A program made the translations under genes and the position numbers. A stretch of DNA of 64,000 nucleotides from a virus, in IMG/VR virus record IMGVR_UViG_3300025087_000036, positions 87,987-151,986 of that record, one strand, 5' to 3'. Numbering within the stretch: the first letter of the stretch is position 1; each line of letters begins with the position of its first letter. This document shows, piece after piece, positions 31,844-60,858 of the stretch. The notes beneath the pieces were generated by a model that made no database searches, was not told the origin of the DNA, and worked only from the letters and a program-made list of their open reading frames with translations.

Positions 31844-32653
31844 GTGAACTTTGGAACAATACTACAATCAGTAACAAGTGTCTGTGCAAAGAAAGCATTG
31901 GCAAACCAGGAACAGGACGCTAAGATGTTAGCTAAGACCTTCATAAATTTTGTGAACATCAAGGAAGTATTACACAAGCAATTCAATGTGTTCACACGAT
32001 TGGAATCATCATATATGGCCGACAGAAGACTAGCAGAGATGTTTGTCAATGAAACGGTATCCGCATTGGATGGAATGAACTTCAAGGATGTTCAAGCTTA
32101 CAATACTCTTCTTGAATCTAAGTGTAAGATACCAGCTATGAAGTCTTCTCAATTGAACATGGATATTGGAACAGTCATAAGGTATCGGTTGGATAAGGAA
32201 TCAGTTGACCCAAAGAGATATGTTGAATCATTCGATAGAGTTGTTCAGCATGTGAACTCATTGCATGAGGACAAAGATCCCTATGAGAACTTGAGTGAGA
32301 TGGTTGCCAATTCGGAACTGAAATTCTTGAAGCCAAAGCATGTTATTAGAATTGCCCTTGGAAAATTCAACAGCAAATACTCAAACCAATTGAATGAAGA
32401 TGACCGCAAGGTTTTCTTTTTGTTGAAAGAGAATGATCAAGGCAAGATAGCTGATAAACAAAAATTGATGATAGCGGAAATAGAGTCCCTATTGGTGAAA
32501 CTTGGTGGATCAATGGGCGAAGAGTTGTCTAGTAAGGCAGCAGCAGCCACCAAGCAATGCAAAGAGAACCAAACAGCAGATGGCCTATTGGATACATATG
32601 AGTTGGTTTGTGAGTTAAGAAATCTAAGGGAGAAAGACAATGAAGAAAAGTGA
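31844..32653 (+). CDS. Unknown virion-region protein, 269 aa
   Basis: GTG start after AAGGAGCGTATGTAA. All-helical (QSVTSVCAKKALANQEQDAKML..., EIESLLVKLGGSMGEELSSK). Position between portal and prohead protease, where T4 carries gp67/gp68 prohead core genes, hints at a prohead core or internal protein; similarity itself not visible. Overlaps the next gene by 14 bp. Confidence 0.7.
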   Translation: MNFGTILQSVTSVCAKKALANQEQDAKMLAKTFINFVNIKEVLHKQFNVFTRLESSYMADRRLAEMFVNETVSALDGMNFKDVQAYNTLLESKCKIPAMKSSQLNMDIGTVIRYRLDKESVDPKRYVESFDRVVQHVNSLHEDKDPYENLSEMVANSELKFLKPKHVIRIALGKFNSKYSNQLNEDDRKVFFLLKENDQGKIADKQKLMIAEIESLLVKLGGSMGEELSSKAAAATKQCKENQTADGLLDTYELVCELRNLREKDNEEK

Positions 32654-32876
32654 ACTGAAAAAAATTATCAAGGAAACCTTGAATGAGGATGTTATGGATG
32701 GATACAAAAAGGTAAAGCTACCGATAAGCTTTCCTTTTACATGGGACGCAAGAGATTATCACAAATTTGATGATATAAAGAATCTACTACAAAAGCTAAC
32801 TAAAAAGAAAATTCTTTCTAAAGAGATTGAGGCAGACAATGTGTTTCCTTATAAAGCAATATTTTATGTTAAGTAA
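32640..32876 (+). CDS. Putative internal head protein 1 (shared leader)
   Basis: 78 aa. Leader MKKSELKKIIKETLNE (1-16) with protease-type sites I-K-E12 and L-N-E16, then a small alpha/beta domain (YKKVKLPISFPFTWDARDYHKF...). Eight genes here share this leader. I infer capsid targeting and removal by the gp21-type protease. Lies next to the protease and scaffold genes. Confidence 0.7.
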   Translation: MKKSELKKIIKETLNEDVMDGYKKVKLPISFPFTWDARDYHKFDDIKNLLQKLTKKKILSKEIEADNVFPYKAIFYVK

Positions 32877-32888
32877 CGGAGGAAATTA

Positions 32889-33440
32889 ATGGCTAAATTT
32901 GGACCAGGAACAAAGAAAGAACTAAGTGTTAACAGAAAAGATTGGAAAGTGACCATTGGTGCTATTGAGAACAAAAATAGACCAGAGGCTTTGTACATCG
33001 TCTTTAACTCTTGGGTGAAGCCTAAATTATCGGTTGTAAAGGCCCAGAATACGGCCACACACGAATCAGACGAGTTGGTTGGGGTCATTATGTCTGACTT
33101 CGAAAAAGAACTTAAGGTACGCGGTAGGAGCTTCAAGAATTACTTCAACTCAAAGTTTTTCGATCCAGCTTCTTTGATCTTTGATTATAGTTTTATTGCA
33201 GAGGGGGCAGAGATAGGGAAAAGACAGTTTTTGGAACTAGAATTCAATATCGATACAGTGAATGATATTGATTGGAATGGTGGCCCAGCACAAAACAAGG
33301 ATACTGGAAAAGTGAACAATATTCCCTTTGCTAGTTTTGAGAGTGAGTTACAAGACACAATGAACAGGATTTTGGATATGGATATCTTCAATGAGAGCAA
33401 ATCCAACTTGAACTTTTCGAAGGTAAAGGGGGCAGCATAG
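32889..33440 (+). CDS. Unknown virion-region protein, 183 aa
   Basis: Ribosome-binding site GGAGGAAATTA. MAKFGPGTKKELSVNRKDWKVTIGAIENKNRP..., alpha/beta, ends NESKSNLNFSKVKGAA. Embedded in the prohead-core gene group and touching the next leader gene (33441). No family recognised. Confidence 0.7.
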   Translation: MAKFGPGTKKELSVNRKDWKVTIGAIENKNRPEALYIVFNSWVKPKLSVVKAQNTATHESDELVGVIMSDFEKELKVRGRSFKNYFNSKFFDPASLIFDYSFIAEGAEIGKRQFLELEFNIDTVNDIDWNGGPAQNKDTGKVNNIPFASFESELQDTMNRILDMDIFNESKSNLNFSKVKGAA

Positions 33441-33680
33441 ATGAAAAAGAGTGAACTGAAAAAGCTTATCAAAGAAATACTCCAAGAGGATGTATTTGAT
33501 CACTACGTTACCGTTTGGAGTAAAGATGAGAAAAAATTTGTTCTGTCACAATTGAACCATAGGAGTTACAACCTTGGATATGGGTCTAAGATTTTCAAAA
33601 AGTGGAATGATGCTGACGTTGAAGAAATAGAGGGTGACCTAAAGAAGCATGGATATCGTCAATTGAGAATAGAGGATTAA
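33441..33680 (+). CDS. Putative internal head protein 2 (shared leader)
   Basis: 79 aa. Leader MKKSELKKLIKEILQE, then VFDHYVTVWSKDEKKFVLSQLNH and an ADVEEIEGDLKKHGYRQLRIED tail, which resembles phage proteins of the YfdR/DUF-like KTSC neighbourhood only in style. ATG directly follows the previous stop. Confidence 0.7.
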   Translation: MKKSELKKLIKEILQEDVFDHYVTVWSKDEKKFVLSQLNHRSYNLGYGSKIFKKWNDADVEEIEGDLKKHGYRQLRIED

Positions 33681-33683
33681 CCA

Positions 33684-33968
33684 ATGAAGAAAAGCGAACT
33701 GAAAAAGATTATCAAGGAAACAATATTAGAAGCAAACATCCACAAACATGGATTTACCACTGTGGAATGGGACTTCAGAAAAGAGTACCAAAACGTATAT
33801 GGGAATGCAATAGAAGCATTGGAAGTAGTGTACAGTGTCATCGAAAAAATGAAATCAAAAAAGCAGGCGGCTGTCTTTATGGAAATTTTCAAGAAAGTTA
33901 TCAGAGAACTTAGTCAAATTGAGGAAGAAATTGCTAAAGAACTAAAGAACGGGGGAGGCTCCAAATAG
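33684..33968 (+). CDS. Putative internal head protein 3 (shared leader)
   Basis: 94 aa. Leader MKKSELKKIIKETILEA, then a mostly helical body with VVYSVIEKMKSKKQAAVFMEIFKKVIREL. Nucleotide sequence of the leader is close to that of 32640 and 33441, suggesting duplication of the leader segment. Confidence 0.7.
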   Translation: MKKSELKKIIKETILEANIHKHGFTTVEWDFRKEYQNVYGNAIEALEVVYSVIEKMKSKKQAAVFMEIFKKVIRELSQIEEEIAKELKNGGGSK

Positions 33969-33970
33969 CT

Positions 33971-35650
33971 ATGAACCAAAAACTACTCATAACAGAATGG
34001 TTTGAACTAGATGTTGGTGCTGACATTTTACAAGAGATTGCAGACAACCCAAGCAAACCAGTAATAATCAAAGACAAGCTTCTACAAAAAGCCAACGTGA
34101 AAAACCACAATGGTAGGGTCTACCCAAAAGAGATCTTAGCCAGAGAGGTTAAGAAGTATTCACACATAGTAAAAGATCGTAGGGCCATGGGGGAATTAGA
34201 TCACCCAGATTGCAATATATCAAAAAACTTTGATGTATTGTCAGAATTTGGTTGGAAACCATTTTCTGAGTTAAAACTAGGGGAGAAGATATATGCAATC
34301 AATGAAAATAACAGGTTAGAATTAAATGAAATAGAAAGAATTATCGATGAACCATATAGCGGAAACGCTTATAAAATAAGAGGCAGAGGAATAGATTCTT
34401 CGTTTACCCCAACCCACAAATTGTTACTAGAAGCAAGGTATGGAAAAAGGGAGTATGTCACAATTGAGGAAATACACAACAATAGAGGCAAATACAATAA
34501 ACATAAAATATTAAAATCTAATTTTGATTGGTTTGGTAACAACCCAGATTTCATTGAAATTCCAGGTGTGTCAAAAGAAAAATATTCAAATAGATTTACG
34601 AATAATGTTGAGGAACCACTTAAAATAGACACAATGACATTTGTTCAATTCCTAGGAATTTGGCTCGCAGAGGGCCACACCCGCATAGGGGGTGGATCTT
34701 ATTTATCAGTAATCACACAAAAATCTGGTGTTAAGGCTGATTTGATCAGAGAAATGTTAAGCAAATTCCAAATTGAAATAAAAGAATACAATAAGGGGAA
34801 TGATAAAATAGTATTCTCAATCCAAGATATAAGATTGGCAAAATATTTGGATATATTGGGAAAGTGCCATGAAAAATATATCCCTAGTGATATCAAACAA
34901 CTTGATCCAATTTATCTATCTGAATTGATTGATTGGTTTATCATGGGAGATGGAAGAAAACAAACACACCAACATGGAATTAGACAAAATTTGTTTTCCA
35001 CCTCGAAAAGGCTTGTTGAGGATTTACACGAATGTCTTATCAAAATTGGTGGGTCTGGAAATTGGCAAGAAATAATAACCAAGGATGATTATATGTTTGC
35101 TGATCATCTAATAGAGGCCAAAAATAAACGACCACTATATCAGTTAAACATATCCACAACAAATGGTATATATTTGGATGAAAGGTTCTTAAAGATAGAA
35201 AAAGTAGAACACAAGGGAAATATATATTGTCTAACAGTTAAGAATGGAAACTTTTATATGAAGGAAAATGGCAAAGCATTTCTTACAGGAAACTCGGCAA
35301 TAATTGAATTAAAAAATGTTTCACACTTAGTAACTGATATTTATATGCGAGATGAAGAGGTTAGGGGATCACTGGAAATTTTGAACACACCCCCAGGGCA
35401 GATTCTAAAAAACCTTATTCAGCAGGGTGTGAAGATCGGAATATCGTCTAGGGGAATTGGATCACTACAGCAAGAGGCTGAAATAAATGTGGTTCAAGAT
35501 GACTTCGAACTCATTGCTTTTGACGCAGTTTCGTCGCCATCCACTCCAGGCGCATATTTAGTAGAGAGTGTTGGAAAAAATGTTACGGACAGATACAATG
35601 GACTACGCAATATCCTTCATGGAATATTGAAAGATTCATACTTTAAGTAA
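33971..35650 (+). CDS. 21: Prohead protease (gp21-like) with intein
   Basis: 559 codons; the extein is 198 aa, matching gp21 (212). Catalytic His in GELDHPD (residues 74-80) and Ser in GISSRGIGS, plus NHNGRVYPKEIL and ELKNVSHLVTDIY. It is a serine protease that cleaves scaffold, core proteins and capsid N-termini after [LI]-x-E. The intein interrupts right after the catalytic His motif. Targets here probably include both capsid proteins and the leader proteins around it. Confidence 0.94.
   Translation: MNQKLLITEWFELDVGADILQEIADNPSKPVIIKDKLLQKANVKNHNGRVYPKEILAREVKKYSHIVKDRRAMGELDHPDCNISKNFDVLSEFGWKPFSELKLGEKIYAINENNRLELNEIERIIDEPYSGNAYKIRGRGIDSSFTPTHKLLLEARYGKREYVTIEEIHNNRGKYNKHKILKSNFDWFGNNPDFIEIPGVSKEKYSNRFTNNVEEPLKIDTMTFVQFLGIWLAEGHTRIGGGSYLSVITQKSGVKADLIREMLSKFQIEIKEYNKGNDKIVFSIQDIRLAKYLDILGKCHEKYIPSDIKQLDPIYLSELIDWFIMGDGRKQTHQHGIRQNLFSTSKRLVEDLHECLIKIGGSGNWQEIITKDDYMFADHLIEAKNKRPLYQLNISTTNGIYLDERFLKIEKVEHKGNIYCLTVKNGNFYMKENGKAFLTGNSAIIELKNVSHLVTDIYMRDEEVRGSLEILNTPPGQILKNLIQQGVKIGISSRGIGSLQQEAEINVVQDDFELIAFDAVSSPSTPGAYLVESVGKNVTDRYNGLRNILHGILKDSYFK
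34211..35293 (+). mobile_element. Intein in the prohead protease, 361 residues
   Basis: Starts Cys (HPD-CNISKNFDVLSEFG), block B FTPTHKLLLEA, LAGLIDADG endonuclease motifs FLGIWLAEGHT and LIDWFIMGDGRK, and C-terminus FYMKENGKAFLTGN before Ser. Penultimate residue is Gly instead of His. Normal intein plus homing endonuclease length. Splicing joins GELDHPD to SAIIELKNVSH. Confidence 0.92.
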
Positions 35651-35664
35651 GGAGAAACGGAACT

Positions 35665-36792
35665 ATGTTGAAACAAAAGAAAGACGTTATTAAGAATGCT
35701 CTGCTTGAGGCAGAAGAACTAGAAAGAGCTTCCTTGGAAGCGGCAAAAAATCTTGTCATTGAGAATTTTGCTCCTAACCTAACTGATTTTTTCAAGGATG
35801 TATTGAAGGAAGCGGAACATGATATTGGTAAGGAAGAGGATCTTGGTAGGGAAGATACCGATGCTGCCTTTGATACAGAGGAACCAATCAAGGAAAGAAA
35901 AAAGGTTCGTAAAGAGGAAGATGAAAAGATTGACCTTGACGATGATGGGGATGATGATGTTGATATCGACTTCGATGATGAAGACGATGAGGATGAAGAA
36001 CTGGATGAGGTTGACGATGTAGCTGGCGATCCAGTTCCAGAGAAAAATCAATCTGCTCAACCAATAAATTTGACTGTTAAGCAAACAGCAGATGGTTGGG
36101 AAGCAACAGCCTCCGCAGCAAAACCAGAACCCATCACCCAAGAGGGAAAAAAGAGGAGTGCCAAAAAACTTCGCAAAGAAGAATTTGGTGATGAAGATGA
36201 ATTGAAAGACGATGATGAAGAGTTTGAAGTGCCCGATGAACTCTTTGATGATGAAGAAGATCTAGGTGAGGCAGACGATGAAGACCTAGACATAGATATC
36301 GATTTGGATGATGAAGACGAGATTGATGTTGACGATCTTGACAGTGAAGACTCAGAAATGGGAGATGAAGAGGATGATGAATTTAAGGATCTTGGAGAGG
36401 GTAGAAAGATTAGTAAGACTACGTTGAAACTAGTAAGAGAAAACAAGAAGCTTAAGAGGCTGATTGAATCTTTGACTACCCAAATGAGAGAGACAAACCT
36501 TTTCAACAGTAAGCTTGCTCACCTGAATAAGCTTTACATGAGTGGTATGTTTACCAACAGGGAAAAGGAAAGGATAGCCGAAAGGTTAGACAGATGCAAG
36601 AGCTTGAAGACAGTAAAGCTTCTTTATGGAAAGATCATCAAGGAAGCAGCAAACAGTGATCCGTCAACTAGTTTCTCTAGCATAATCAAGGAAGTTAAGA
36701 CTACCTCGAAAGCAAAGGAAGCAAAGAAGGATAAGCTATACGAATCAGAAGAGTTGAAGAGAATGCGTCAACTGTCTGGTTTGAAAGGTTAA
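35665..36792 (+). CDS. 22: Prohead scaffold/core protein (gp22-like)
   Basis: 375 aa. Helical ends flank a huge acidic centre (residues about 85-260: DDDGDDDVDIDFDDEDDEDE and similar). N-terminus has L-L-E-A and V-L-K-E-A sites matching the prohead protease rule; C-terminus is helical and ends RMRQLSGLKG. Position between protease and major capsid fixes the identity as the assembly core that is digested during maturation. The acidic tracts are far longer than in T4 gp22. Confidence 0.85.
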   Translation: MLKQKKDVIKNALLEAEELERASLEAAKNLVIENFAPNLTDFFKDVLKEAEHDIGKEEDLGREDTDAAFDTEEPIKERKKVRKEEDEKIDLDDDGDDDVDIDFDDEDDEDEELDEVDDVAGDPVPEKNQSAQPINLTVKQTADGWEATASAAKPEPITQEGKKRSAKKLRKEEFGDEDELKDDDEEFEVPDELFDDEEDLGEADDEDLDIDIDLDDEDEIDVDDLDSEDSEMGDEEDDEFKDLGEGRKISKTTLKLVRENKKLKRLIESLTTQMRETNLFNSKLAHLNKLYMSGMFTNREKERIAERLDRCKSLKTVKLLYGKIIKEAANSDPSTSFSSIIKEVKTTSKAKEAKKDKLYESEELKRMRQLSGLKG

Positions 36793-36819: not shown

Positions 36820-38352
36820 ATGGGAATGAAACTATTAAAATCAGGGTTGGTGGGGAACATCCAAACCAATCAACTGAAAGAACAAAGAATGAAGGTTGTT
36901 AATAGATGGGAAAAGACAGGTCTTCTTGAGGGACTAGAAGCCCAAAAGAAAACCAACATGGCCCAACTATTGGAAAACCAAGCTGGTGCTTTGTTGAAGG
37001 AAGCGGACAACTCAACTTCTAACATAGCTGGGTTTGATATCATTGTGTTCCCAATGGTGCGTAGAGTTTTCTCTCGCCTATTGGCAAACGATATTGTATC
37101 GGTTCAACCATTGAACCTACCTAGTGGATTGTTATTCTATCTTGATCATCAAGTGGAGACAGTTACTACAGGTGCCAGAGGAACCTATGCAAGCGTGTAT
37201 GATGCACACTATGACAATGGTGGGCACAACTATTCATTTGCTACAGGGGCCACAACCTATGGTGCATGGGCAAATGTTGGTGGAGATAACTATGTAACTT
37301 TAACTTATAGTGGTAGCGAGGAATCTCTTGCTTCATTGCAAATTGAAGTTATCTCTGGTATTGGTGCAACTGTAACAGGTGTTACTCACTTTGCTATTGA
37401 TCCACAAACCTGGACCGCTGGGTTGTTTGCTAACAACCAAATCTTGGTTAAGGTTAATGATAGCGGTTATACTGGTACTAACGTAGCCTACGTTGATTGC
37501 GTAGCTAACTCTGCTAGAACTTCATACACAGTGTATGGAGATTTAGAAGGTAGCTCTAACATGGCAGAAGTGAAGTTGATCGTAACTTCTACAACTGTAA
37601 GTGTTACCAGCAGAAAGATGAAAGCTCACTGGACCCCAGAATTGGCACAGGACTTGGCTGCATACCACAGCTTGGACGCCGAAGCTGAATTGACTGCTTT
37701 GTTGAGTGAGGAACTTGCAGCAGAAATCGACCGCGAAATCATTCGTGACTTGATCCGTGTTGCTCCTTACCAAACAAGCTGGTCTTACGATAGAACAGCT
37801 TCGATAACCAGGACAGATGGTACAACCATTCCTGGCGATCCTGCAAGCGCATATGTTACCCAAAAGGAATGGAACCAAACTCTGTTGACACAGGTTAACA
37901 AGGTTAGCGCCCAAATCCACAAGGCAATGTTGCGCGGTGGTGCAAACTGGATTGTTTGCTCCACTGAGGTTGGATCGGTTATGGAAGACATCGAGAAATT
38001 CCACGCCGTTTCCGAAGCCGACACCGAGCAATACAACATGGGTATCGAAAAGATGGGAACCCTATCTTCAAGGTACACCGTTTACAAGGATCCTTACCTA
38101 CCTGCTCAAATTTGTTTGATTGGGCACAAGGGAAGCAACTTCATGGATACTGGATATGTGTATGCTCCATACATTCCATTCCAGCTAACTCCTGTAGTCC
38201 TGGATCCAGATGACTTCACACCAAGGAAGGGTATTATGACCAGATACGCTAAGAAAGTTGTTAACAACAAGTATTACGGTATGGTTAGGGTTATCTTCCC
38301 AACAAGCTACACTTTGATTAATGGTTCAAGCACCAATGTTTCGAACTTCTAA
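36820..38352 (+). CDS. 23: Major capsid protein (gp23-like)
   Basis: 510 aa. N-terminal propeptide ends in ALLKE61-ADNSTSN, a predicted prohead-protease cut (L-x-E/A). HK97-fold landmarks: VFPMVRRVFSRLLANDIVSVQPL, ELAQDLAAYHSLDAEAEL, ANWIVCSTEVGSVMED, and C-terminal YGMVRVIFPTSYTLING. A TATTTATG sequence (36815-36822) overlaps the start codon and so cannot serve as its promoter. A strong terminator follows. Confidence 0.95.
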   Translation: MGMKLLKSGLVGNIQTNQLKEQRMKVVNRWEKTGLLEGLEAQKKTNMAQLLENQAGALLKEADNSTSNIAGFDIIVFPMVRRVFSRLLANDIVSVQPLNLPSGLLFYLDHQVETVTTGARGTYASVYDAHYDNGGHNYSFATGATTYGAWANVGGDNYVTLTYSGSEESLASLQIEVISGIGATVTGVTHFAIDPQTWTAGLFANNQILVKVNDSGYTGTNVAYVDCVANSARTSYTVYGDLEGSSNMAEVKLIVTSTTVSVTSRKMKAHWTPELAQDLAAYHSLDAEAELTALLSEELAAEIDREIIRDLIRVAPYQTSWSYDRTASITRTDGTTIPGDPASAYVTQKEWNQTLLTQVNKVSAQIHKAMLRGGANWIVCSTEVGSVMEDIEKFHAVSEADTEQYNMGIEKMGTLSSRYTVYKDPYLPAQICLIGHKGSNFMDTGYVYAPYIPFQLTPVVLDPDDFTPRKGIMTRYAKKVVNNKYYGMVRVIFPTSYTLINGSSTNVSNF

Positions 38353-39835: not shown

Positions 39836-41716
39836 ATGATCGAAGTTAGTATCAGTGAGAAGTATAAAGCAGAACTGTCTAGCCTAAGAGGGGTTTCCAA
39901 AGATATCCAAGCAGAATGGAACAAAGTATTTCCAGGAGTGGATAGCAAGTCTGCAATCCTATTGGAAAACCAAAGAAGATTTTTGAATGAAGTAAACTCA
40001 ACCACCGATCTTGGTGGAGATTTAGATGGTGGAACTCAATCGCAATTTCCAATGATGCCAATCGTTAGGAGAATCATACCAACAGGAATTTCTAGGAAGC
40101 TTGTTTCAATCCAACCGATACTGTATCCAACAGCTATGGTGTTTTACTATGATCCAAAAATAGAAACAGCAAAGGGAAGCTCTGCCTACATTTCTTTAAT
40201 TGAAGCAAGAAGCGGTCATTCAAATTATGATATCTCTCTTGGTGAGGCAACTTCCGTAAATGGGGCTATGACTGCCATAACGGCAGCACAATATTTGTCA
40301 GGTGCTTCTTTTACTGTTCCCTATTCGGGTGGGGTGGGTAGTCTTTCTTCACTTCAAGTGTTCCTGGAGTATGACCAAACTGGATTGAGTGGACGAAATG
40401 GAATTGTAACATCCTCCCCAACAAGTCTGTTTACTGGGATGACATTCGATGATAACGTGGACGCGGGAACCAACTATCTTATTGTAAGCACGGCAAACCA
40501 AACTGGATGGTGTCAGTTTCAATTTACTTCTCTCACCCCAAATATTACATCATACACACTTAAAAGTAGTTTAGCTTTGCCACCAACATTAATAGAGTTG
40601 TGTGGTTCAACAGACTCAACATCTTGGTCACAACTAGATTATCATTCTGGATTATCTCTTGTTGCAAACACAACATACAGGTACAACTTGGCAACAGAAT
40701 CAACGGGGAACACTTACTTTAGATTCAATTTCAGTGGGGCAATTGGAACTCTTGTCACTGAATTAGAATTGTTAGGTTATGAAGCTTTACCATATGCCGT
40801 ATCTCCACAAACATGGGGTCAAAATTTGTTTGCAAACAACCGATTGAGTTTAATAGCAACAACAGATGAAACATGGTTGTCTGGAAGCAATCGGACAGCC
40901 TACACAAGATACAATACATATGCTTCTAATGAAGCTGTGTCTGGAATGCAACAAGTCCAATTGAACATAACCGGAACCTCAATCTCTTGTAACACAAGAA
41001 AGCTCAAGGCAAGTTGGACAGAAGAGCTAGACCAAAATTTGAAATCGTTCTTTGGTATCTCTATGGTTGATGAAGTGGCTAACCTCATGGCAACAGAGAT
41101 AGCTTTGGAGATAGACAGACAAGTAATATCGGACCTGATAAACATTGCACCTTATCAAACCAGTTGGCACTATAGCCCAAGGTCTGCCGTAACTAGGATT
41201 GATGGAACTGTTATTCCAGTTGAAGCCTCAAGTGCTAGAGTAACCCAAGAGGAATGGAATCAAACTTTGCTCATAGAAGCCAACAAAATAAGTGCTATGA
41301 TAGGTCGCGCAAACTTCAACCACGAGGCTAATTGGATTGTTTGCTCGGCAAAGGTTGGGAGTGTTCTAAGAGACAACATTGACTTTGTGCCAACCTCAAA
41401 GGATTATAACCCACACGATGATTATATGATAAGTTATGCTGGGAGGGTGAATTGCAAATATGATCTTTACATAGATCCGATGTTGCCAGATGATATTTGC
41501 CTCATTGGATATTTGGGGGATAATGATTACGATTGCGGATACATATATGCACCATACATTGCCCTTCAACCAACACCAAAAGTTGTCGATCCAAGCACCT
41601 TGTATGATTGGAAATTTGGTATAATGAATAGGGCAGCAAAGAAAGTTGTGAATAACAAAAAGTATGGTTTGATAAGAGTCACTTTCCCAAGTGATTATGA
41701 AGTGATAAATGGATAG
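39836..41716 (+). CDS. 24: Second capsid protein, probably vertex (gp24-like)
   Basis: 626 aa paralog of the major capsid protein: shared PMVRRI, VSIQP, RKLKASWTEELDQNLKSFFG, ANWIVCSAKVGSVL, YIYAPYI, AAKKVVNNKKYGLIRVTFPSDYEVING. Predicted protease site FLNE52-VNST. It carries about 110 extra residues (roughly 180-300, TSLTPNITSYTLK...TGNTYFRFNFSG) that look like an inserted beta-sandwich. Role as pentamer/vertex is inferred from T4; it could also be a decoration variant. Confidence 0.85.
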   Translation: MIEVSISEKYKAELSSLRGVSKDIQAEWNKVFPGVDSKSAILLENQRRFLNEVNSTTDLGGDLDGGTQSQFPMMPIVRRIIPTGISRKLVSIQPILYPTAMVFYYDPKIETAKGSSAYISLIEARSGHSNYDISLGEATSVNGAMTAITAAQYLSGASFTVPYSGGVGSLSSLQVFLEYDQTGLSGRNGIVTSSPTSLFTGMTFDDNVDAGTNYLIVSTANQTGWCQFQFTSLTPNITSYTLKSSLALPPTLIELCGSTDSTSWSQLDYHSGLSLVANTTYRYNLATESTGNTYFRFNFSGAIGTLVTELELLGYEALPYAVSPQTWGQNLFANNRLSLIATTDETWLSGSNRTAYTRYNTYASNEAVSGMQQVQLNITGTSISCNTRKLKASWTEELDQNLKSFFGISMVDEVANLMATEIALEIDRQVISDLINIAPYQTSWHYSPRSAVTRIDGTVIPVEASSARVTQEEWNQTLLIEANKISAMIGRANFNHEANWIVCSAKVGSVLRDNIDFVPTSKDYNPHDDYMISYAGRVNCKYDLYIDPMLPDDICLIGYLGDNDYDCGYIYAPYIALQPTPKVVDPSTLYDWKFGIMNRAAKKVVNNKKYGLIRVTFPSDYEVING

Positions 41717-42833: not shown

Positions 42834-43124
42834 GTGAACAAAAGTGAACTGAAAGCCCTCATCAAAGAGATATTGATGGAAGAAAAAAAGAGGGACTACA
42901 AAAAGGAATACAACGATTACCATGGGTCTAGTAAACAGAAGAAAAATCGTGCCCAAAGGAATGCAGCAAGAAGAACTCTTGAGGCAGATGGTAGGGTTAG
43001 CAAAGGTGACGGTAAAGATGTTGACCACAAGAGAAAGATTAAGAGTGGTGGTTCAAACTCCAAGTCGAACTTGAGGGTTAGAAGTAGAAGCTCAAACAGG
43101 GCAGATAATAAACACAAGGGGTAA
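42834..43124 (+). CDS. HNH-like protein with shared leader
   Basis: 96 aa from GTG 42834 (AAGGAGACAAATA). Leader MNKSELKALIKEILME, then a basic body ending VDHKRKIKSGGSNSKSNLRV-RSRSSNRADN, the signature of a small phage HNH-type family (VDHxxPxxxGGxNxxxNLRV). The complete HNH triad is partial. A nuclease carrying the leader may be packaged in the head. It lies between two neck genes. Confidence 0.72.
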   Translation: MNKSELKALIKEILMEEKKRDYKKEYNDYHGSSKQKKNRAQRNAARRTLEADGRVSKGDGKDVDHKRKIKSGGSNSKSNLRVRSRSSNRADNKHKG

Positions 43125-43130
43125 ATTTTA

Positions 43131-43625
43131 GTGGCTTATTCAGGAATGTCATTGTGGTTTGGTGAAGCTGAAAATACTCTATTCAACAATCTTGGTAGGG
43201 AGTTGGTTGAAACTCTTATCACCCAGCATTTTACTCTGTATAGACCAGACCCAAACAATACAGAAACAAACTTCTATGGGGAGGCGAAGCGTAAGGTTTG
43301 GCTACCAGCAGTTGATGTCAAGGCTAGGATATCCATAACTGATTCTGACGTTGTTGAAGAGGGTGGGGCAAGAAGAATGGGCAAGGGGGATATGCAGGCT
43401 TGGGTGTACTTGCAACACTTGTCTGAATTGAACGTGGCGATTTCTGTGGGAAATTTCATAGGGTTTCAGGGTAAGGTGTATGAGGTATATGATAACAGTC
43501 CAAACAAGGATAATATGAGAAGAAAATTTGCAGGTGATAGGAACTATTTCCAAGAGATTTTAGCTAAGGTTGTCTTGGAAGACATATTTGCTGGATCGGC
43601 AACAGAACAAGGATACCAGGAATGA
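43131..43625 (+). CDS. Probable neck/head-closure protein (gp14 position)
   Basis: 164 aa, GTG start after AAGGGGTAAATTTTA. SLWFGEAENTLFNNLGRELVETLITQHFTLYRPDPNNTETNFYGE, VYLQHLSELNVAISVGNFIGF...DNSPNKDNMRRKFAGDRNYFQEI. Position between gp13-like and gp15-like genes corresponds to gp14, but the protein is shorter and similarity is not evident to me. Confidence 0.65.
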   Translation: MAYSGMSLWFGEAENTLFNNLGRELVETLITQHFTLYRPDPNNTETNFYGEAKRKVWLPAVDVKARISITDSDVVEEGGARRMGKGDMQAWVYLQHLSELNVAISVGNFIGFQGKVYEVYDNSPNKDNMRRKFAGDRNYFQEILAKVVLEDIFAGSATEQGYQE

Positions 43626-44347
43626 CCTACGATAAGAGAATCCCAAGTGGTAAGCAGCTATCTCAAATAGAGGAAAAGGAGTGGATGCAAAAGAATCCAT
43701 TGAAAGATCAAAAGACTTTCTTTCCTAGAAGCATATCTTTAGAAGATATTGATAAATCAGTTTATTCTTGGTTCACCACAAATGACCTGGAAATAGATGG
43801 GGTTAAAATTCCTGTTCACGTTCTGACAACAGAAAAATGGGCAGAGTTTGTGAAGCGTTGGAAGGCAATGGATAACGACAGAAATGTTACCTATCCATAC
43901 ATAACCATGCGAAGATCCAACACCAACCCTGGGCAAGATCCAATCAAGGCTAGGATACCAAACATGAAATATACAACATACAGGGTTCCCTTTTACACCC
44001 CAGCAGGACCAACCTATAAGCTATACAAGGTTCCGGCACCAATAAGGGTTGACTTGGAGTATCAAGTGAGGATATTAACCCATTACATAAAGGACATAAA
44101 TACGATTAATGAAATCCTACTAAGGCATTTCGCAAGTCTCCAAGCATATTTAGATATTGACAAGCATTATATGCCCATGACAATTGAAAGCATCTCGGAT
44201 GAGTCAAATGCAGAGGACATACAAGAAGAAAGGGTTATACATACGTTGTATTCGATAAAGGTAAAGGGTTATCTGATCGACGAAAAAGAATTCGAAGAGA
44301 AGATTGGAATCAGTAACATTTTGGTTGATATCAGAGAAGATGTCTAA
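43622..44347 (+). CDS. 15: Tail terminator/sheath stabiliser (gp15-like)
   Basis: 241 aa, ATGA overlap. APIRVDLEYQVRILTHYIKDINTINEILLRHFASLQAYLDIDKHY and the following ...ERVIHTLYSIKVKGYLIDEKEFEE match the core of T4 gp15 (P-x-K-x-YELxIxTRYxDDxxQIVEQILPYF). gp15 hexamers cap the contractile tail and bind the neck. Confidence 0.78.
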   Translation: MTYDKRIPSGKQLSQIEEKEWMQKNPLKDQKTFFPRSISLEDIDKSVYSWFTTNDLEIDGVKIPVHVLTTEKWAEFVKRWKAMDNDRNVTYPYITMRRSNTNPGQDPIKARIPNMKYTTYRVPFYTPAGPTYKLYKVPAPIRVDLEYQVRILTHYIKDINTINEILLRHFASLQAYLDIDKHYMPMTIESISDESNAEDIQEERVIHTLYSIKVKGYLIDEKEFEEKIGISNILVDIREDV

Positions 44348-44364
44348 TAAAAGAGAGGTAAATC

Positions 44365-46632
44365 ATGAGTGAGGTATTCGTTTCGCCGGGGGTCTACGTT
44401 AGGGAGAGAGATTTCTCATACTACGTTTCTAGTGTGGGAAACTCATCACTGGCATTGGTTGGAGAAACCAAGAAGGGTCCAGCATTTTTGCCAACCCTAG
44501 TTAAAAATATGAGTGAGTTTAGAGAAAAATTTGGCAACATGGATCCAAACAAACTTGTTGGATATGCGGCAAAGAGTTATTTCAAGTATGCTAACTCTGC
44601 CTATGTGGTTAGGGTGCTTGGTAATGATGCGCTTAGACCATCTGGGACAGAGCTATTGACATTTGTTGTCCAAGGAACTTCGGAAAAGCTTGTTGCAGCT
44701 ACCCTACTATGTGATGGTCTGACTGTTGCAAACACTGTGAAGATTGAGAGTGGAAAGACTTCAATTCAAAGTTTCAGAATGACAGCAGACACAATTTATA
44801 CTGGAAGCGTTAACCTGTATGATACAAATGCTGCCGACTACATTGGAACCCTATTCCCAAGAGGAACAACTGTTGCTGCCAGCGCAAATGCTATGGCTTT
44901 GCAACATATTTTCCCATTGACAATTGCTAGAGGATTAACCTTGACAGGATCCACAGCAGCGATGCCAACTTATTCAGCGTGGACAGGTGCCTCTGTTCAA
45001 ATTTCTGATACGGCTTTGAATATTACAGGATACAGTAAAGCAAGTTCACCATTGATTGTTGCGAACGTACCGGATACAACAAACGCTGGAACAGGGTTGT
45101 TTACTGTTCATACAATCAGTGATGGTATTGATGCAAACTCTATAATCAAAATTGGGATAGAGAACATCAATACTGCTAACACAACCTTTGATATTGTGGT
45201 TAGAGATTATGCTGATACCAATGCAAGTCAAATTGTATTGGAGAGGTTTGCTAAGTGTACCATGGATCCAACTAGCGATGATTACATCTTGAAACAAATT
45301 GGAGACAGCAGAGATGAAACAGGAAACTTCAAATTGGTTTCTGGTTACATCTATATTGAAGCGGAAAGTGGGGATCACACAGGGTTAGTACCCTACGGTT
45401 GGAATGGTACAACTATTCCATCTGCGACAACTTTTGCTAGTTTTGCTGGGAGCGCCGTATTTCCACAGTATTCTTGCACAACTGCTTATGCAACCACAAC
45501 CTCAATTAGCAGACAGTACCTTGGATTAGATTATGTAAACACAGACCCAGATCTTCTTATGATTGGAAATGGTAGTGCCTGGGATAAAGATTTGGGTGGG
45601 CAGGCAAGGAAAGGTTTCCACCTAAACAGTGGAGCTAATACTACATTGTATGCTACTGGTCCATCTGCCATAACTTCTTATGCCACAACACACGCTAAGT
45701 TCTTGGTGCCTGTTTTTGGTGGTAGAGATGGCTGGGTGTATAGTGCCGCAACTAGGGATCTATTGACAAACGATCCAACCGCTTCACAAATCACACAATG
45801 GGATGCCGCCTTGGATACCCTTCGTAATCCAGAAGAGTATGATATAAATCTATTGGCTGTTCCTGGTGTAGATCTTACTTGTTCAATCGGAACCTATGCT
45901 CAAGAGCTTGCAGAAGAAAGGGCAGACTGTTTGTACATTGGAGATATGCCTTCTGGAAAGACTTCTTCCTCTCAAGCTGCGGCAGTAACCTTGCCGGATA
46001 GCAGCTATGCTTGTACCTACTGGCCTTATGTCAAAATCTATGATAGCGACAATTCGCAAGATGTGTACATTCCACCTACACCACAGGCTTTGGAAGCTTT
46101 GGCCTATACGGATAGTGCTGCATTCCCATGGTATGCCCCTGCCGGTATGAATCGTGGTCTGTTGACAGACGTTATCAGGGCACAATACAGATTGACGGCA
46201 GCAGACAGGGAGACCTTGTATAACGCAAAGATCAACCCTATCGCTACCTTCCCAGGACAAGGTATCACAATTTGGGGACAAAAGACCTTGCAAACCAGAC
46301 CAACGGCATTGGATAGAATCAATGTTCGTAGGATGATGCTTTACATTGAAAAAGTTATCGCTGGCGCAAGCAAGTATCTTGTGTTCGAACAGAATGATGT
46401 GAATACTTGGAATCGTTTCAAGGGCATGGTCCAACCAATCATGGATATTGTGAAGATCAACAGGGGATTGTATGACTTCCGTGTTATCATGGATGAGACA
46501 ACCAATACCCCAGACATGATTGACAGAAATCAAATGGTTGGGCAAATTTATGTGAAGCCAACCAAGACAGCAGAAGCTATCTTGGTCAATTTCAATATTT
46601 TGGCCTCAGGTGCCGAATTTAGTGAATCATAA
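44365..46632 (+). CDS. 18: Tail sheath protein (gp18-like)
   Basis: 755 aa. N-terminal SPGVYVRERDFSYYVSSVG, SAYVVRVLG; C-terminal ALDRINVRRMMLYIEKVIAGASKYLVFEQND...WNRFKGMVQPIMD and VGQIYVKPTKTAEAILVNF, all standard for contractile sheath. The middle holds protease-resistant-type beta domains typical of gp18. Immediately followed by an endonuclease gene. Confidence 0.95.
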   Translation: MSEVFVSPGVYVRERDFSYYVSSVGNSSLALVGETKKGPAFLPTLVKNMSEFREKFGNMDPNKLVGYAAKSYFKYANSAYVVRVLGNDALRPSGTELLTFVVQGTSEKLVAATLLCDGLTVANTVKIESGKTSIQSFRMTADTIYTGSVNLYDTNAADYIGTLFPRGTTVAASANAMALQHIFPLTIARGLTLTGSTAAMPTYSAWTGASVQISDTALNITGYSKASSPLIVANVPDTTNAGTGLFTVHTISDGIDANSIIKIGIENINTANTTFDIVVRDYADTNASQIVLERFAKCTMDPTSDDYILKQIGDSRDETGNFKLVSGYIYIEAESGDHTGLVPYGWNGTTIPSATTFASFAGSAVFPQYSCTTAYATTTSISRQYLGLDYVNTDPDLLMIGNGSAWDKDLGGQARKGFHLNSGANTTLYATGPSAITSYATTHAKFLVPVFGGRDGWVYSAATRDLLTNDPTASQITQWDAALDTLRNPEEYDINLLAVPGVDLTCSIGTYAQELAEERADCLYIGDMPSGKTSSSQAAAVTLPDSSYACTYWPYVKIYDSDNSQDVYIPPTPQALEALAYTDSAAFPWYAPAGMNRGLLTDVIRAQYRLTAADRETLYNAKINPIATFPGQGITIWGQKTLQTRPTALDRINVRRMMLYIEKVIAGASKYLVFEQNDVNTWNRFKGMVQPIMDIVKINRGLYDFRVIMDETTNTPDMIDRNQMVGQIYVKPTKTAEAILVNFNILASGAEFSES

Positions 46633-46680
46633 TTGATTACAAACTAAGTTGGAGCAATTGATAAAAAAATAAAGTTTTTT

Positions 46681-46717
46681 CTCTCCTTGTTTGATATTTA
46701 TTATTAAGCAAGGAGAG
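46681..46717 (+). promoter_or_regulatory. Hairpin with late-promoter element, hiding the endonuclease ribosome-binding site
   Basis: CTCTCCTTG pairs with CAAGGAGAG, extended by three inner pairs; loop contains GATATTTATT (motif 46695-46702). AAGGAG (46710-46715) is sequestered in the stem. TTTTT after the stem means it could also terminate sheath transcripts. Confidence 0.65.
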
Positions 46718-46722
46718 TTTTT

Positions 46723-47496: not shown

Positions 47497-47543
47497 GTGA
47501 AGGAACTTATGGATATGCCCCACAATTTAAACAAGAGAGAGCA

Positions 47544-47816
47544 ATGAAAAAGTCTGAATTGAAAAAGATCATTCGAGAATGCTTGAATGAGTACGACAAA
47601 AAAGATGTTATCAAGCAAAAGGGACTTGAGTTCCTTGGTGGCAAGAATTATGGAAAGGGTGGAAGAGCTTTGTTCAAATCAATCAATGGGAGATTGGTTC
47701 CTATGAGTGGTCAAGAACAACTCGACTATTTAAACAAGCAAAGAGGAAAGCCAACCAAGAAACCAACAAACAAGAAACAGTTTGGGAAAAAGGTTGTGAA
47801 AGTTGTCGATAAATAA
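47544..47816 (+). CDS. Putative internal head protein 4 (shared leader)
   Basis: 90 aa from ATG 47544 (AAGAGAGAGCA). Leader MKKSELKKIIRECLNEYDKK, then a lysine/glycine-rich basic body (GGKNYGKGGRALFKSINGRL, PTKKPTNKKQFGKKVVKVV). A basic, disordered body is what T4 internal proteins that bind DNA look like. Confidence 0.7.
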   Translation: MKKSELKKIIRECLNEYDKKDVIKQKGLEFLGGKNYGKGGRALFKSINGRLVPMSGQEQLDYLNKQRGKPTKKPTNKKQFGKKVVKVVDK

Positions 47817-47834
47817 CGCTAGAGAGGGAAACCA

Positions 47835-48194
47835 ATGAAGAAATCAGAGTTGAAGAAAATAGTTATTGAGTGTAAGAAGGAACTTGTCAAAGAGGGTCCA
47901 GAACAAGCTAAGTCTAAGAAAGCTCCGTTGAAGGCTTGGGTCATGTTTGACAGGATCATACAGATGATGTCAAAGAAGAGTAAGTTCATAACCAATGTTG
48001 GCAGAAAGCGTGTCATGGGTGGAAAGTTTGTGCATGAGTTCAAGATGTATGGTGACTTTACGTTTTATGTCATATCGGATTTTGACTTCAAATCGTTGAC
48101 AAGCAGATTCAATGAAAAGAGCGAGGAAACAAACGAAGCAGCATTCACAAACCCAGGTTTAGAAAAAAAGTATCAAGAAAAGAAAAAGAAATAA
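47835..48194 (+). CDS. Putative internal head protein 5 (shared leader)
   Basis: 119 aa. Leader MKKSELKKIVIECKKELVKEG, basic body (KSKKAPLKAWVMFDRIIQMM) with a beta region (HEFKMYGDFTFYVISDFDFK) and lysine tail YQEKKKK. Function unknown. Confidence 0.7.
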   Translation: MKKSELKKIVIECKKELVKEGPEQAKSKKAPLKAWVMFDRIIQMMSKKSKFITNVGRKRVMGGKFVHEFKMYGDFTFYVISDFDFKSLTSRFNEKSEETNEAAFTNPGLEKKYQEKKKK

Positions 48195-48209
48195 CCAAAG
48201 GAGAGTTAC

Positions 48210-49013
48210 ATGGATGACGTTATGAAACCCGGCGAAATAAAACCAAAGGGTGGTTCCTCAAGTGTCTTTGACATACCTTTCGATGTGATTGAATTACCAT
48301 CAAAGGGGTTGCTATACAAGACCGGAACATTGGTTGGCAAGAGTAGTGTTGAGGTTCATTATTTGACAGCAAGGGAAGAAGACATTTTGACTTCACCAAA
48401 CTTGCTACAAAGTGGAAAGATGCTTGATGTTCTTATCAGGAGTGTCCTCAAGAACAAGACAATTGACCCAGGTGATTTTTTGCTTGGGGATAGAAACGCA
48501 ATCATCATTTGGTTAAGGTCAACCGGATATGGTGCGGAGTATCCTGTTCAAGTGTTGTGTTCGCAATGCGGAGAGAGGTACGAAAAGGAATTCGACTTGT
48601 CAAAGTTGGAAGTAAGAGAGTTAGCAGAAGACCCAGATAGTGATGGTTTGTTTTCTATGACCCTTCCCCAGACAAACAAGAAGATTAGATTTAGACTCTT
48701 GACAGCAAGAGATGAATCAGAGATTGTTAAGAAGGTTGAGGATATCAAGAAGAAGGTTGGGGGAAATGTTGACCAAACAGAATCCTTGAAGATAAAAGCT
48801 ATGATCAAGGAGGTTGATGGTAACAACGATTTGGCAACCATCACAAGTTTTGTTAGCACCATGCCTGTCAAGGATACCAAGGCATTCAGAAAGTATGCTA
48901 ACTCAATTGAACCTGGAATCATGATGGTCCAGGATTCCACTTGCACCTTCTGTGGAAACGAAACCAAGGAGGTTATCCCCCTACGGGAAAACTTTTTTTG
49001 GCCTGACAGTTGA
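48210..49013 (+). CDS. 26: Baseplate hub subunit (gp26-like)
   Basis: 267 aa. DIPFDVIELPSKGLLYKTGT, VEVHYLTAREEDILTSPNLLQSGKMLDVLIRSVLKN is the conserved N-terminal block of the T4 gp26 family. Two cysteine pairs (CSQCGERY and CTFCGNET) form a zinc site. Acts in hub assembly. Confidence 0.88.
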   Translation: MDDVMKPGEIKPKGGSSSVFDIPFDVIELPSKGLLYKTGTLVGKSSVEVHYLTAREEDILTSPNLLQSGKMLDVLIRSVLKNKTIDPGDFLLGDRNAIIIWLRSTGYGAEYPVQVLCSQCGERYEKEFDLSKLEVRELAEDPDSDGLFSMTLPQTNKKIRFRLLTARDESEIVKKVEDIKKKVGGNVDQTESLKIKAMIKEVDGNNDLATITSFVSTMPVKDTKAFRKYANSIEPGIMMVQDSTCTFCGNETKEVIPLRENFFWPDS

Positions 49014-49194
49014 TGATAAAAAGTATCTCTTGGAAGAGTTGTTCCAGCTAGTTTTTCACGGCAAGTTTAGTTTGTCGGATGCTAGGTTGTTACCTGTTTA
49101 CCAGAGAAAGTGGTTCATAGATAGAACCGTCAATGAGATAGAGAACATAAAAAAGGCAGTTGAAGCTGCTGCCAAAGCTGGAAAGAAAAAATGA
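48952..49194 (+). CDS. Small baseplate-region protein
   Basis: LTVDDKKYLLEELFQLVFHGKFSLSDARLLPVYQRKWFIDRTVNEIE matches a small family found directly after gp26 in T4-like phages (hub assembly, gp51 position). The frame has no ATG; GTG 48952 lies inside the gp26 gene. The true start may be nearer 49000 with a rare codon or by coupling at the gp26 stop. Confidence 0.65.
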   Translation: METKPRRLSPYGKTFFGLTVDDKKYLLEELFQLVFHGKFSLSDARLLPVYQRKWFIDRTVNEIENIKKAVEAAAKAGKKK

Positions 49195-50054
49195 AACATA
49201 CTGAATTGAAAAATTTGATCAAAGAGTGCTTGCTTGAATTCAAATCAGACATGGGAAAGCAATGTGTAATGTTGATGGGACTTCCGGCTTCTGGAAAGAG
49301 TAGTCTTATCAGTAGTGGAATTTTGGGTAAATATATTGCTGGGTTTAAATCATACAGTGTTAGCAATAGTGATGCACAAGTAAAGGCACTTCAATATCAA
49401 AAAGCAAAAGAACACTATGATTACATTGAAAAAAACGTAAAGACACAAAATGATTTTGATGAATTCACACGCTCAACAAGATATGATAACCCATACACAA
49501 AGAGTTCAATTGCACTACCGATAACTTGGGCTTGGTGGAAAGAAAACAAAGACAGTGGACTTAACACCTTTGTCAAGACATTTTTCAAACCATACTATTC
49601 TGTTTATTTTGATATCAGAGAATTAGCAATCAAAATGGAAAAAGATTTGTTTGACTTAAAGATAGTTAAGGCTGGAAATATACTGATCATTGACACAACA
49701 GGAACAAACGTAAAGAAAGCAGCAGAAAGATTCAAGAAAGCAAAACAAGAGGGATACACAACAACAGTTGTATATCTTAGTATTGATCCAGAGTTGTGTA
49801 TATCTAGAGACAATTTCAGGAAACTACATTCTGGCCGTGGAGTTGGAGAGAATGTCATTATGGGTTATGCTAAAGAATTGGCAAAATCTGTTCTGTCATA
49901 CAAGGCTAATGGGGAATCCGCAAATGGTTGGGTAGACAGGATAATAAAATTCAGATGGGTTGGGGGAGCTTCCCCAACAGATGGCAAATTTTCTCTTGTA
50001 TATGATATCAGATATGATGTAAAGAGAAAACTAGAGAAGAAAGGTAAGGTATAA
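49191..50054 (+). CDS. P-loop kinase, zeta-toxin-like, with shared leader
   Basis: 287 aa. Leader MKHTELKNLIKECLLEF, then Walker A GLPASGKSS (residues 30-38), Walker B-like ILIIDTTGTN, and lid region LSIDPELCISRDNFRKLHSGRGVGENVI, like the R-x4-R-x4-GR of zeta toxins and related nucleotide/sugar kinases. ATGA overlap with the preceding gene. The leader suggests delivery with the phage DNA; substrate unknown (UDP-sugar, nucleic-acid 5' end or protein). Confidence 0.78.
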   Translation: MKHTELKNLIKECLLEFKSDMGKQCVMLMGLPASGKSSLISSGILGKYIAGFKSYSVSNSDAQVKALQYQKAKEHYDYIEKNVKTQNDFDEFTRSTRYDNPYTKSSIALPITWAWWKENKDSGLNTFVKTFFKPYYSVYFDIRELAIKMEKDLFDLKIVKAGNILIIDTTGTNVKKAAERFKKAKQEGYTTTVVYLSIDPELCISRDNFRKLHSGRGVGENVIMGYAKELAKSVLSYKANGESANGWVDRIIKFRWVGGASPTDGKFSLVYDIRYDVKRKLEKKGKV

Positions 50055-56211: not shown

Positions 56212-56213
56212 GC

Positions 56214-56513: not shown

Positions 56514-56514
56514 T

Positions 56515-58281: not shown

Positions 58282-58293
58282 GAGTAACAAACA

Positions 58294-59031: not shown

Positions 59032-59046
59032 TTTCTCTGCTATACT
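59018..59046 (+). promoter_or_regulatory. Sigma70-type promoter for the replication module
   Basis: TTTACA (59018-59023), 17 bp, TATACT (59041-59046). Starts a 160-nt leader with TATTTATC (59077), AT-rich stretches and the 27-bp repeats before the polymerase-like gene. Confidence 0.75.
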
Positions 59047-59110
59047 TTCGTAGCGGCGAAGAAAAAAAGAATATCTTATTTATCTTATATATTATAAAGA
59101 GCTTAGTAGC

Positions 59111-59191
59111 TTAAAGTACCTAATATCTAAAAAGCAGTTAAAGTACCTAATATCTAAAAAGCAGTTAAAGTACCTAATATCTAAAAAGCAG
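59111..59191 (+). repeat. Three perfect 27-bp tandem repeats (iteron-like)
   Basis: Units start at 59111, 59138 and 59165, each beginning TTAAAGTACCTAATATC and ending AAAAAGCAG; a partial fourth starts at 59192 and supplies the AAGGGG ribosome-binding site. The unit length is a multiple of 3, but no start codon serves the open frame. Placed between a promoter and the polymerase-like gene: candidate replication origin iterons or an autoregulatory operator. Confidence 0.9.
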
Positions 59192-59204
59192 TTAAGGGGT
59201 TACA

Positions 59205-60137
59205 GTGAATATAGTACAATCTACATATAAAAGGAACATAAGCTCATTAATAGCTGAAAGCATCTTAAATAACTGTATAGTGCATATAAACACAAATGCA
59301 CTCTATGTCCATTACTGTCTTAATAAGCATAAGAAAAAAAGCAGCTTAGTGAAAGTATATCAAGAAGCAGTTCAAAATAATAACTACATAAGATCAAAAT
59401 ACTATGGAAGGGATAAAAGAACCTTTAGGATATTTGCTGTTAAGGGGTATGTTAACCTAATAAATGAATCTGACCCTATTGTCCTAAAGAGTATACAATC
59501 TAGGTATGAGGATGGGTATATTGTGGTCTTTGATTACAAGGTACATGAGTACAACATATTCAGAAGCCTCCTAAACGTTCCAGATTGCCCCCAGGACATT
59601 CATAAGTTTGTATCCGATACATTGGGTGTTCCCAGGTCAGAAGCCAAGGTGATCGATTCTACGCTTCTATACGCAAGGGAAGAATCTGTTATCAGGATGT
59701 GTCAATCCCTGGTTGATTCAAAGAAATATGACAAGGAATCTCTTAGGTCAATATTTGATGTTTTCTCAAATCTAAGGGTCTACATAGAAGCATACAACAA
59801 AACCAAGATTGAGATGTTCCGAAAAACAGGGTATGTTGTCAACTCATATGGGAGAAAGATTTATCCCAAGGATGAAAGCTCTATATTTAACAATATCATA
59901 CAATCAATAGGTACAGAGTTGTTGATTGATGATCTAATCTCCATAGATTTATTGGGTTTAAAGAAAACCCATATCCTTTTTCATAGGTTTGACTCCATAT
60001 ATTTCGATGTGGACAAATCACAATTGGAGAACAGTATAGGAGTTATCAAGAGAACCATGGAAAATATCCACCCAGAGTACCACTTAGAAGTTGGCATTCA
60101 AATAGGGAGGGGTTTGACTTCCATGTTGGAGCTATAA
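59205..60137 (+). CDS. Stand-alone family A DNA polymerase core (fingers and palm)
   Basis: 310 aa, GTG start after AAGGGGTTACA. Motif A FDYKVHEYNI (D110, E115), motif B R144-x3-K148-x7-Y156 (PRSEAKVIDSTLLYARE) with the exact PolA spacing, NSYGRKIYP, N229-x3-Q233 (NNIIQSIGTE), motif C HRFDSIYFDV (D263). These align with E. coli PolI D705, R754, K758, Y766, N845, Q849, D882; E883 is Ser. No exonuclease or thumb domain. May need a partner or be specialised. Confidence 0.8.
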   Translation: MNIVQSTYKRNISSLIAESILNNCIVHINTNALYVHYCLNKHKKKSSLVKVYQEAVQNNNYIRSKYYGRDKRTFRIFAVKGYVNLINESDPIVLKSIQSRYEDGYIVVFDYKVHEYNIFRSLLNVPDCPQDIHKFVSDTLGVPRSEAKVIDSTLLYAREESVIRMCQSLVDSKKYDKESLRSIFDVFSNLRVYIEAYNKTKIEMFRKTGYVVNSYGRKIYPKDESSIFNNIIQSIGTELLIDDLISIDLLGLKKTHILFHRFDSIYFDVDKSQLENSIGVIKRTMENIHPEYHLEVGIQIGRGLTSMLEL

Positions 60138-60138
60138 A

Positions 60139-60537
60139 ATGAAATTTTTACTTCTCGCATCCTTTGTTCAAAAGGATGAACTACATAAAGCGATTGATCA
60201 AATATCCAGTATGTTGAACTTAGCCAAGAATGAAATTTTTGTGTTCATAAATGAAGACGACAATGCAGAATATATCCTTTCCTACAACTTAAACCCAGAG
60301 TTTTCAAACATGAGGTTTTCAACCATTTGGAAGAACACGATTAGCATACATAGAAAAAAGCAGACCAATACCCTCTACTCCCTAAATGCAATGAATGAGT
60401 TAATCAAGAACAAGAATGGGGGATATTTAGATAAGAGCTACAACGTAAATTGGGGAGACTATGAAAATTCCTTCCTGATTATTCGTGGTGGCAAATTGGT
60501 GTCTGTTCCAATCAGGCTAGTGAAGGTTAACTCATAG
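60139..60537 (+). CDS. Unknown protein, 132 aa
   Basis: One base after the polymerase stop. MKFLLLASFVQKDELHKAIDQISSMLN..., alpha/beta, with NTLYSLNAMNELIKNKNGGY. Similar small proteins occur near replication genes of T4-like phages; no function assigned. Confidence 0.7.
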   Translation: MKFLLLASFVQKDELHKAIDQISSMLNLAKNEIFVFINEDDNAEYILSYNLNPEFSNMRFSTIWKNTISIHRKKQTNTLYSLNAMNELIKNKNGGYLDKSYNVNWGDYENSFLIIRGGKLVSVPIRLVKVNS

Positions 60538-60549
60538 GAGAAATTGTAG

Positions 60550-60858
60550 ATGAAAAGATCAGAGCTAAAGAGTATTATCATAGAATGTTTGTTAGAAGAA
60601 AACAAACCAAACAAGAAAAATAGTAAACGCATCATAGAAAATCAGATGAAGTTTTCAGAAGATCAGTTAGATAAATTGAGAGTTGAGTTTTCTAAGATCA
60701 ATACTGTTGACCCAACTGCCCCAGCATACAAGAAGTTCCACAACTATCTGGGTGGATTATCCAAAGATCAACTGAAACAGTTGAAGGAAGCAAAGCCAAG
60801 AATAAAGTGGTTATCAAATGCGGCAGATATTATTTTGAGATATAGTTTTGGGGGATGA
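60550..60858 (+). CDS. Putative internal head protein 6 (shared leader)
   Basis: 102 aa. Leader MKRSELKSIIIECLLEE with E12 and E16, basic linker NKPNKKNSKR, then a helical domain (FSEDQLDKLRVEFSKI). Unlike the other leader genes it sits in the replication module, showing the leader is not just a local repeat of the head region. Ribosome-binding site TAGGAGAAATTGTAG. Confidence 0.65.
   Translation: MKRSELKSIIIECLLEENKPNKKNSKRIIENQMKFSEDQLDKLRVEFSKINTVDPTAPAYKKFHNYLGGLSKDQLKQLKEAKPRIKWLSNAADIILRYSFGG

Follow-up and report, generated by a model that had tools for sequence, protein, structure and literature searches.

An N-terminal leader shared by unrelated proteins of a T4-like phage is probably a capsid-targeting propeptide

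In phage T4, the internal proteins IPI, IPII and IPIII carry a short N-terminal capsid-targeting sequence (CTS), and the prohead protease gp21 cleaves after L/I-x-E (PMC9026906). The internal-protein propeptides are 10-19 residues long, with targeting assigned to residues 4 and 7 and processing to residues 8 and 10 (PMC9026906), and T4 also packages the ADP-ribosyltransferase Alt (PMC9026906). In the giant phage SPN3US, many ejected head proteins are reported to be processed by a prohead protease (PMC5694885, PMC10052503). The virus record analyzed here is 151,986 bases long, and the window, its final 64 kb, contains a leader of different sequence. The consensus N-terminus MKKSELKxxIKExxxE begins eight genes of the window and two more elsewhere in this 152-kb phage, where a profile scan places strong leaders at positions 18947 and 68723 of the full record, plus a weak leader at 82384.

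The window phage is T4-like in that Gp23 capsid, Portal_T4 and Peptidase_S77 matches are all present, and its head genes are on the plus strand. They comprise a T4-type portal (gp20; 29955..31799; PF07230, E = 8e-72), a gp21-type prohead core protease (Peptidase_S77; 33971..35650; PF03420, E = 7e-22), a gp22-type scaffold assigned by position (35665..36792), a gp23-type major capsid protein (36820..38352; PF07068, E = 3e-79) and a second Gp23-type capsid protein (39836..41716; PF07068, E = 2e-51). The two capsid proteins have predicted cuts after LLKE61 and FLNE52, exactly where the first-pass annotation had placed matching protease sites (LKE61 and LNE52). The protease gene is split by an intein-like insert of 361 residues (34211..35293, plus strand; residues 81-441; Intein_splicing match below cut-off) that is flanked by a GELDHPD motif and SAIIEL, so the protease would need splicing to work. 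A long intein-like insert with a LAGLIDADG_3 match is also found in the terminase large subunit (25848-29951; 1367 aa), and a gene with an MTES_1575-type nuclease match lies between the two capsid genes.

The eight leader genes are likewise on the plus strand, and all were found where they had first been reported. The first (32640..32876; leader 32640-32687, MKKSELKKIIKETLNE; 78 aa) is in the head-gene cluster upstream of gp21. It is followed by the second (33441..33680; leader 33441-33488, MKKSELKKLIKEILQE; 79 aa) and the third (33684..33968; leader 33684-33731, MKKSELKKIIKETILE; 94 aa), and the gp21 gene starts 2 bases past the end of this third gene. The fourth (42834..43124; leader 42834-42881, MNKSELKALIKEILME) begins with GTG and has an HNH-like body that matches PHROG 4590. 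The fifth (47544..47816; leader 47544-47591, MKKSELKKIIRECLNE; 90 aa), the sixth (47835..48194; leader 47835-47882, MKKSELKKIVIECKKE) and the seventh (49191..50054; leader 49191-49238, MKHTELKNLIKECLLE), which has an AAA_33 or zeta-toxin-like kinase body, precede an eighth gene much further downstream (60550..60858; leader 60550-60597, MKRSELKSIIIECLLE; 102 aa). Residues S/T4, E5, L6, K7, E12 and E16 are indeed invariant across the eight leaders, and the bodies share no Pfam or PHROGs family, which agrees with the original description of them as unrelated. E16 closes an [LI]xE motif in seven of the eight leaders and I10-x-E12 is also present in seven. The exception in both cases is the gene at 47835, which has KKE and VIE at these places and a VKE that ends at residue 20.

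The leader is far more frequent than chance would produce. When ten leader-bearing phages were scanned with a 12-position profile, each genome gave 1-14 leaders, and shuffling residues 2-12 left close to none. The back-translated leader occurs in at least 119 stretches in IMG/VR, as opposed to 0 for a shuffled peptide of equal degeneracy. Among 84,980 prokaryotic genomes there are three matches, each on a small MAG contig, and two of these are from the same MAG and have neighboring genes that also bear leaders. Relatives of the leader, the variant MKITKxQLRxIIKEE included, precede about 400 clusters of bodies in IMG/VR. Bacterial genomes are nearly free of them. A translated DNA or RNA element, such as a recombination cassette, a promoter or a ribosome-binding leader, might also be found nearly always at gene starts and in front of shuffled bodies. 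However, the codons vary as much as chance permits while the residues are retained: synonymous codon identity among the ten leaders of the window phage is 0.436, and 0.426 is expected for independent codons. Because the residues are kept while synonymous codons agree only at the codon-usage expectation, selection acts on the peptide itself, and the nucleic acid element is ruled out for practical purposes.

Searches of cultured phages were less productive. A tblastn search with the bare leader, a query that is too short, gave no match, and a body-family query likewise gave no result. The HNH-like body also had no match there, despite hundreds of relatives in IMG/VR, and the motif letters do not occur in the literature searched. 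In several long proteins the leader motif is internal (residue 113 of a 376-aa protein at position 1950 of L310, and others in G017, G014_270023 and L372:9344). These internal leaders often stand behind a possible cut site, which suggests polyproteins with several tagged parts.

The end of the leader resembles a prohead protease site. An [LI]xE motif with its glutamate at residues 13-26 is found in 141 of 180 body clusters. Shuffling gives 62 +/- 6 and control stretches about 13-19%. The search profile does not extend to these residues, although it partly builds in the conservation of I10 and E12. The variant leader has the motif in 147 of 230 clusters (shuffle 49 +/- 6), and the enrichment at the leader end is about 2-3x over chance. 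The glutamate is mostly residue 16, 17, 19 or 20. Capsid propeptides in the same phages end in LLRE, LLKE, LITE, LMTE, LLSE or LVTE, and the corresponding T4 gp23 site is FLTE.

Homologous bodies exchange their tags at this same motif. The HNH-like body of the gene at 42834 matches PHROG 4590 from residue 17 on, and 80 IMG/VR relatives of this body usually start it within 7 residues of the initiating methionine. The body is found with the leader (in the window phage and behind MKRSELKEFIKECIKEVMNELNE in its close relative L004), with a T4-type CTS (MKTFKNFITEA in L423) or bare. The L423 contig is a 79-kb fragment without S77, and it is one of 23 contigs >30 kb among the HNH-body relatives, none of which has S77. 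In L382, L395 and L412, the HNH-like body is a C-terminal fusion on a protein of about 700 residues with a T4-tag-like N-terminus. A second, DarT-like body has junctions that read MKKSELKQLIKEETHKILNE/GKQVGTLYHFT in L052 and MIKLLDILKEITE/GKQVGTLYHFT in L033. Here the alignment begins one residue past the predicted cuts (...ILNE/GKQVGTLYHFT and ...EITE/GKQVGTLYHFT). Additional exchanges pair G001_37646 with L008_13053, G024_95927 with L374_664 and L047_4526, G028_76960 with L042_5216, and G024_28072 with L037_14551 (body 83% identical). One and the same body can be preceded by the leader, by a T4-type targeting sequence, by another tag or by none, and the swap junctions are at [LI]xE. This natural exchange on homologous bodies comes closest to indicating that the leader may be sufficient to bring a foreign protein to the head.

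These observations bear on whether the leader is removed at all. It might be an uncleaved docking helix by which proteins are fixed permanently, as structural components, to the prohead core or portal. In a model of the L052 protein, the leader is a separate amphipathic helix (residues 3-20) with a low-confidence joint at residues 15-23, and the canonical [LI]xE at 13-26 is missing in the other 39 of the 180 clusters, the window gene at 47835 among them. In addition, [LI]14xK16 is almost as frequent as [LI]14xE16. At residues 18-20, however, [LI]xE exceeds [LI]xK, D and Q by about tenfold or more, the spacing of the site varies as it does between T4 IPI and IPIII, and tag swaps break at the site, all of which make a permanent helix improbable.

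A gp21-type protease usually accompanies the leader in large contigs. Its gene (Peptidase_S77) is present in 30 of 46 leader-bearing contigs >30 kb, as compared with 4 of 29 random contigs drawn by an arbitrary 15-mer. It is present in 12 of 13 leader-bearing contigs that exceed 90 kb, and in 13 of 14 contigs >100 kb with the variant leader. Overall the protease is found in 25 of 27 leader-bearing contigs >90 kb. The first-pass annotation had proposed a test for such a co-occurrence and had considered that leaders in genomes lacking the protease would speak against a packaging role. Judged by their gene content, the large leader contigs without S77 that were examined are pieces of genomes of this same phage type. 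G024 has 41 genes in common with the S77-positive G028, largely in the same order, and stops short of the head cluster. G025, G017, G030 and G035 have many genes in common with S77-positive phages, and G109 has many in common with G031. Probing variant-leader contigs without S77 with a T4-gp6-like query and a second, apparently chaperonin, query gave mixed results that left G115 and G119 unplaced.

The co-occurrence partly reflects common ancestry, since only T4-like lineages carry the leader. Position matters because co-occurrence alone could be ancestry. In six of eight genomes (0.42 expected), no more than 600 bp separate a leader gene from gp21, and the remaining two (G008 and G028) have no leader gene adjoining gp21. 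Alternatively, the leader might be a targeting signal with no link to the head, one that binds an enzyme of the host or phage, associates with a membrane or directs tail assembly. Several leader genes of the window do lie among tail genes (42834-49191), and one is at 60550. This alternative is very unlikely given the adjacency to gp21, the restriction to S77 phages and the exchange with a T4-type CTS. Separately, a small protein with the motif G-x-V-x-G-[YF]-x-T-x-x-A-F is encoded near the prohead protease, mostly just upstream, and usually has a leader-like N-terminus (L143:3406, G014:259061, G008:70836, L306:15449 and L372:18693).

The leader is most probably a propeptide that targets proteins to the capsid in the manner of the T4 CTS but with a different sequence, because the peptide rather than the DNA is conserved, the leader is restricted to S77 phages and adjoins the protease gene, the cut motif is enriched at variable spacing, and a T4-type CTS takes its place at the predicted cut. 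The initial proposal of a modular head-packaging tag is supported by near-exclusive occurrence in S77 phages, gp21 adjacency, [LI]xE enrichment and exchange with a T4-type CTS and other tags at the predicted cut. Residues 1 to about 12 would form an amphipathic helix with L6, I9 and I10 as its hydrophobic side chains, and this helix could attach the protein that carries it to the core or shell of the prohead while the prohead is still open. Based on the motif and the swap junctions, the gp21-type protease may then cleave after [LI]xE, at E12 and/or at E16 to E20, which would free the body within the head. The bodies would be interchangeable cargo, and some of them probably reach the host cell together with the DNA, like IPI and Alt of T4.

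The cargo is diverse, and most leader bodies have no known family. Of the two cargo types named originally, the HNH-like protein is supported by the PHROG 4590 match, and the kinase is AAA_33/zeta-like by sequence. The patterns used for the kinase body found no relatives in IMG/VR, and single-sequence AlphaFold gave no usable model of it (pLDDT 35). A moderate-confidence model of the L052 body (pLDDT 69.6) has an ADP-ribosyltransferase fold, for which the best structural match is DarT (7omw, E = 1.7e-4). Other bodies include GP88 (PF17338) and DUF5661, the latter in the cultured Flavobacterium phage immuto.

Other N-termini may serve the same purpose. The window scaffold ends in RMRQLSGL (36700-36792), scaffolds of relatives end similarly in R-M-x-x-L-A-G-[IL], and this motif plus [LI]TE also heads unrelated small proteins. 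The presence of RMxxLAG both at the scaffold end and as an N-terminal tag suggests more than one docking signal. In G109, about 18 variant-leader genes with MKITKRQLRRIIKEE variants occupy about 10 kb (53-64 kb, within loci L588 and L589). We give roughly even odds to the broader reading that large T4-like phages use several interchangeable N-terminal tag families for general cargo loading, and thereby maintain large, fast-changing arsenals that act on the host. These families would be MKKSELK, MKITKxQLRxII, RMxxLAGxITE (copied from the scaffold C-terminus), MIKLxxILxE and FDLKKFLxE, and the arsenal would include the DarT-like ADP-ribosyltransferase-fold protein and come from clusters of up to 18 adjoining tagged genes.

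No role has been assigned to the majority of genes in large uncultured phages. If the leader is a targeting propeptide, then one motif of 16-20 residues flags hundreds of unrelated families as predicted head cargo. Many of these proteins could be delivered at infection, and the list of early effectors obtained in this way could be tested. CTS-type loading, which has been described in T4 and in phages closely related to it, would also prove to be widespread under different sequences, and new tags would become available for protein loading into phage heads.

A comparison is possible with cyanophage S-CREM2, in which LxE-ending tags occur on a SAM hydrolase, an APH-like kinase and a cytidylyltransferase of virions, although the tag is of the T4 type and not MKKSELK (PMC10665884). 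The sections of that paper covered here make no mention of a tag. We applied the T4 rule (residue 4 hydrophobic, 7 aromatic, 8 hydrophobic and 10 Glu) to 217 annotated proteins. According to the published virion mass spectrometry, five of the six proteins that fit the T4 rule were detected versus 20 of 185 others not annotated as structural (p = 1.4e-4), and the five are the three enzymes and two unknowns. This test is not fully blind because the rule postdates sight of several N-termini, and the authors warn of co-purification. The result backs the rule where the tag is of the T4 type, and not directly for MKKSELK. The likeness to SPN3US lies in the reported prohead-protease processing of many ejected head proteins. 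In T4, the small core genes 67 and 68 lie directly upstream of gene 21, in the same place as the gp21-adjoining leader genes, whose bodies are unrelated to each other and show no similarity to gp67 or gp68 that was noticed.

Packaging and cutting are proven for the T4 CTS and predicted for the leader. The leader (MKKSELKxIIKE) has no clear homology to T4 MKTYQEFIAEA, is two residues longer to the first glutamate than MKTYQEFIAE, often has a second [LI]xE, and can head up to 18 adjoining genes where T4 has few tagged ones. The spacing of L6/I9/I10/E12 resembles that of Y4/F7/I8/E10 in the T4 CTS, as judged only by eye for a very short peptide. Both are short N-terminal peptides on unrelated proteins that end in L/I-x-E in phages with gp21. 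The distance to the cut varies in both, from 10 aa in T4 IPIII to 19 aa in T4 IPI, and the 16-20 residues of the leader on 180 body clusters compare with the T4 range of 10-19. Finally, a single HNH-like family bears either tag.
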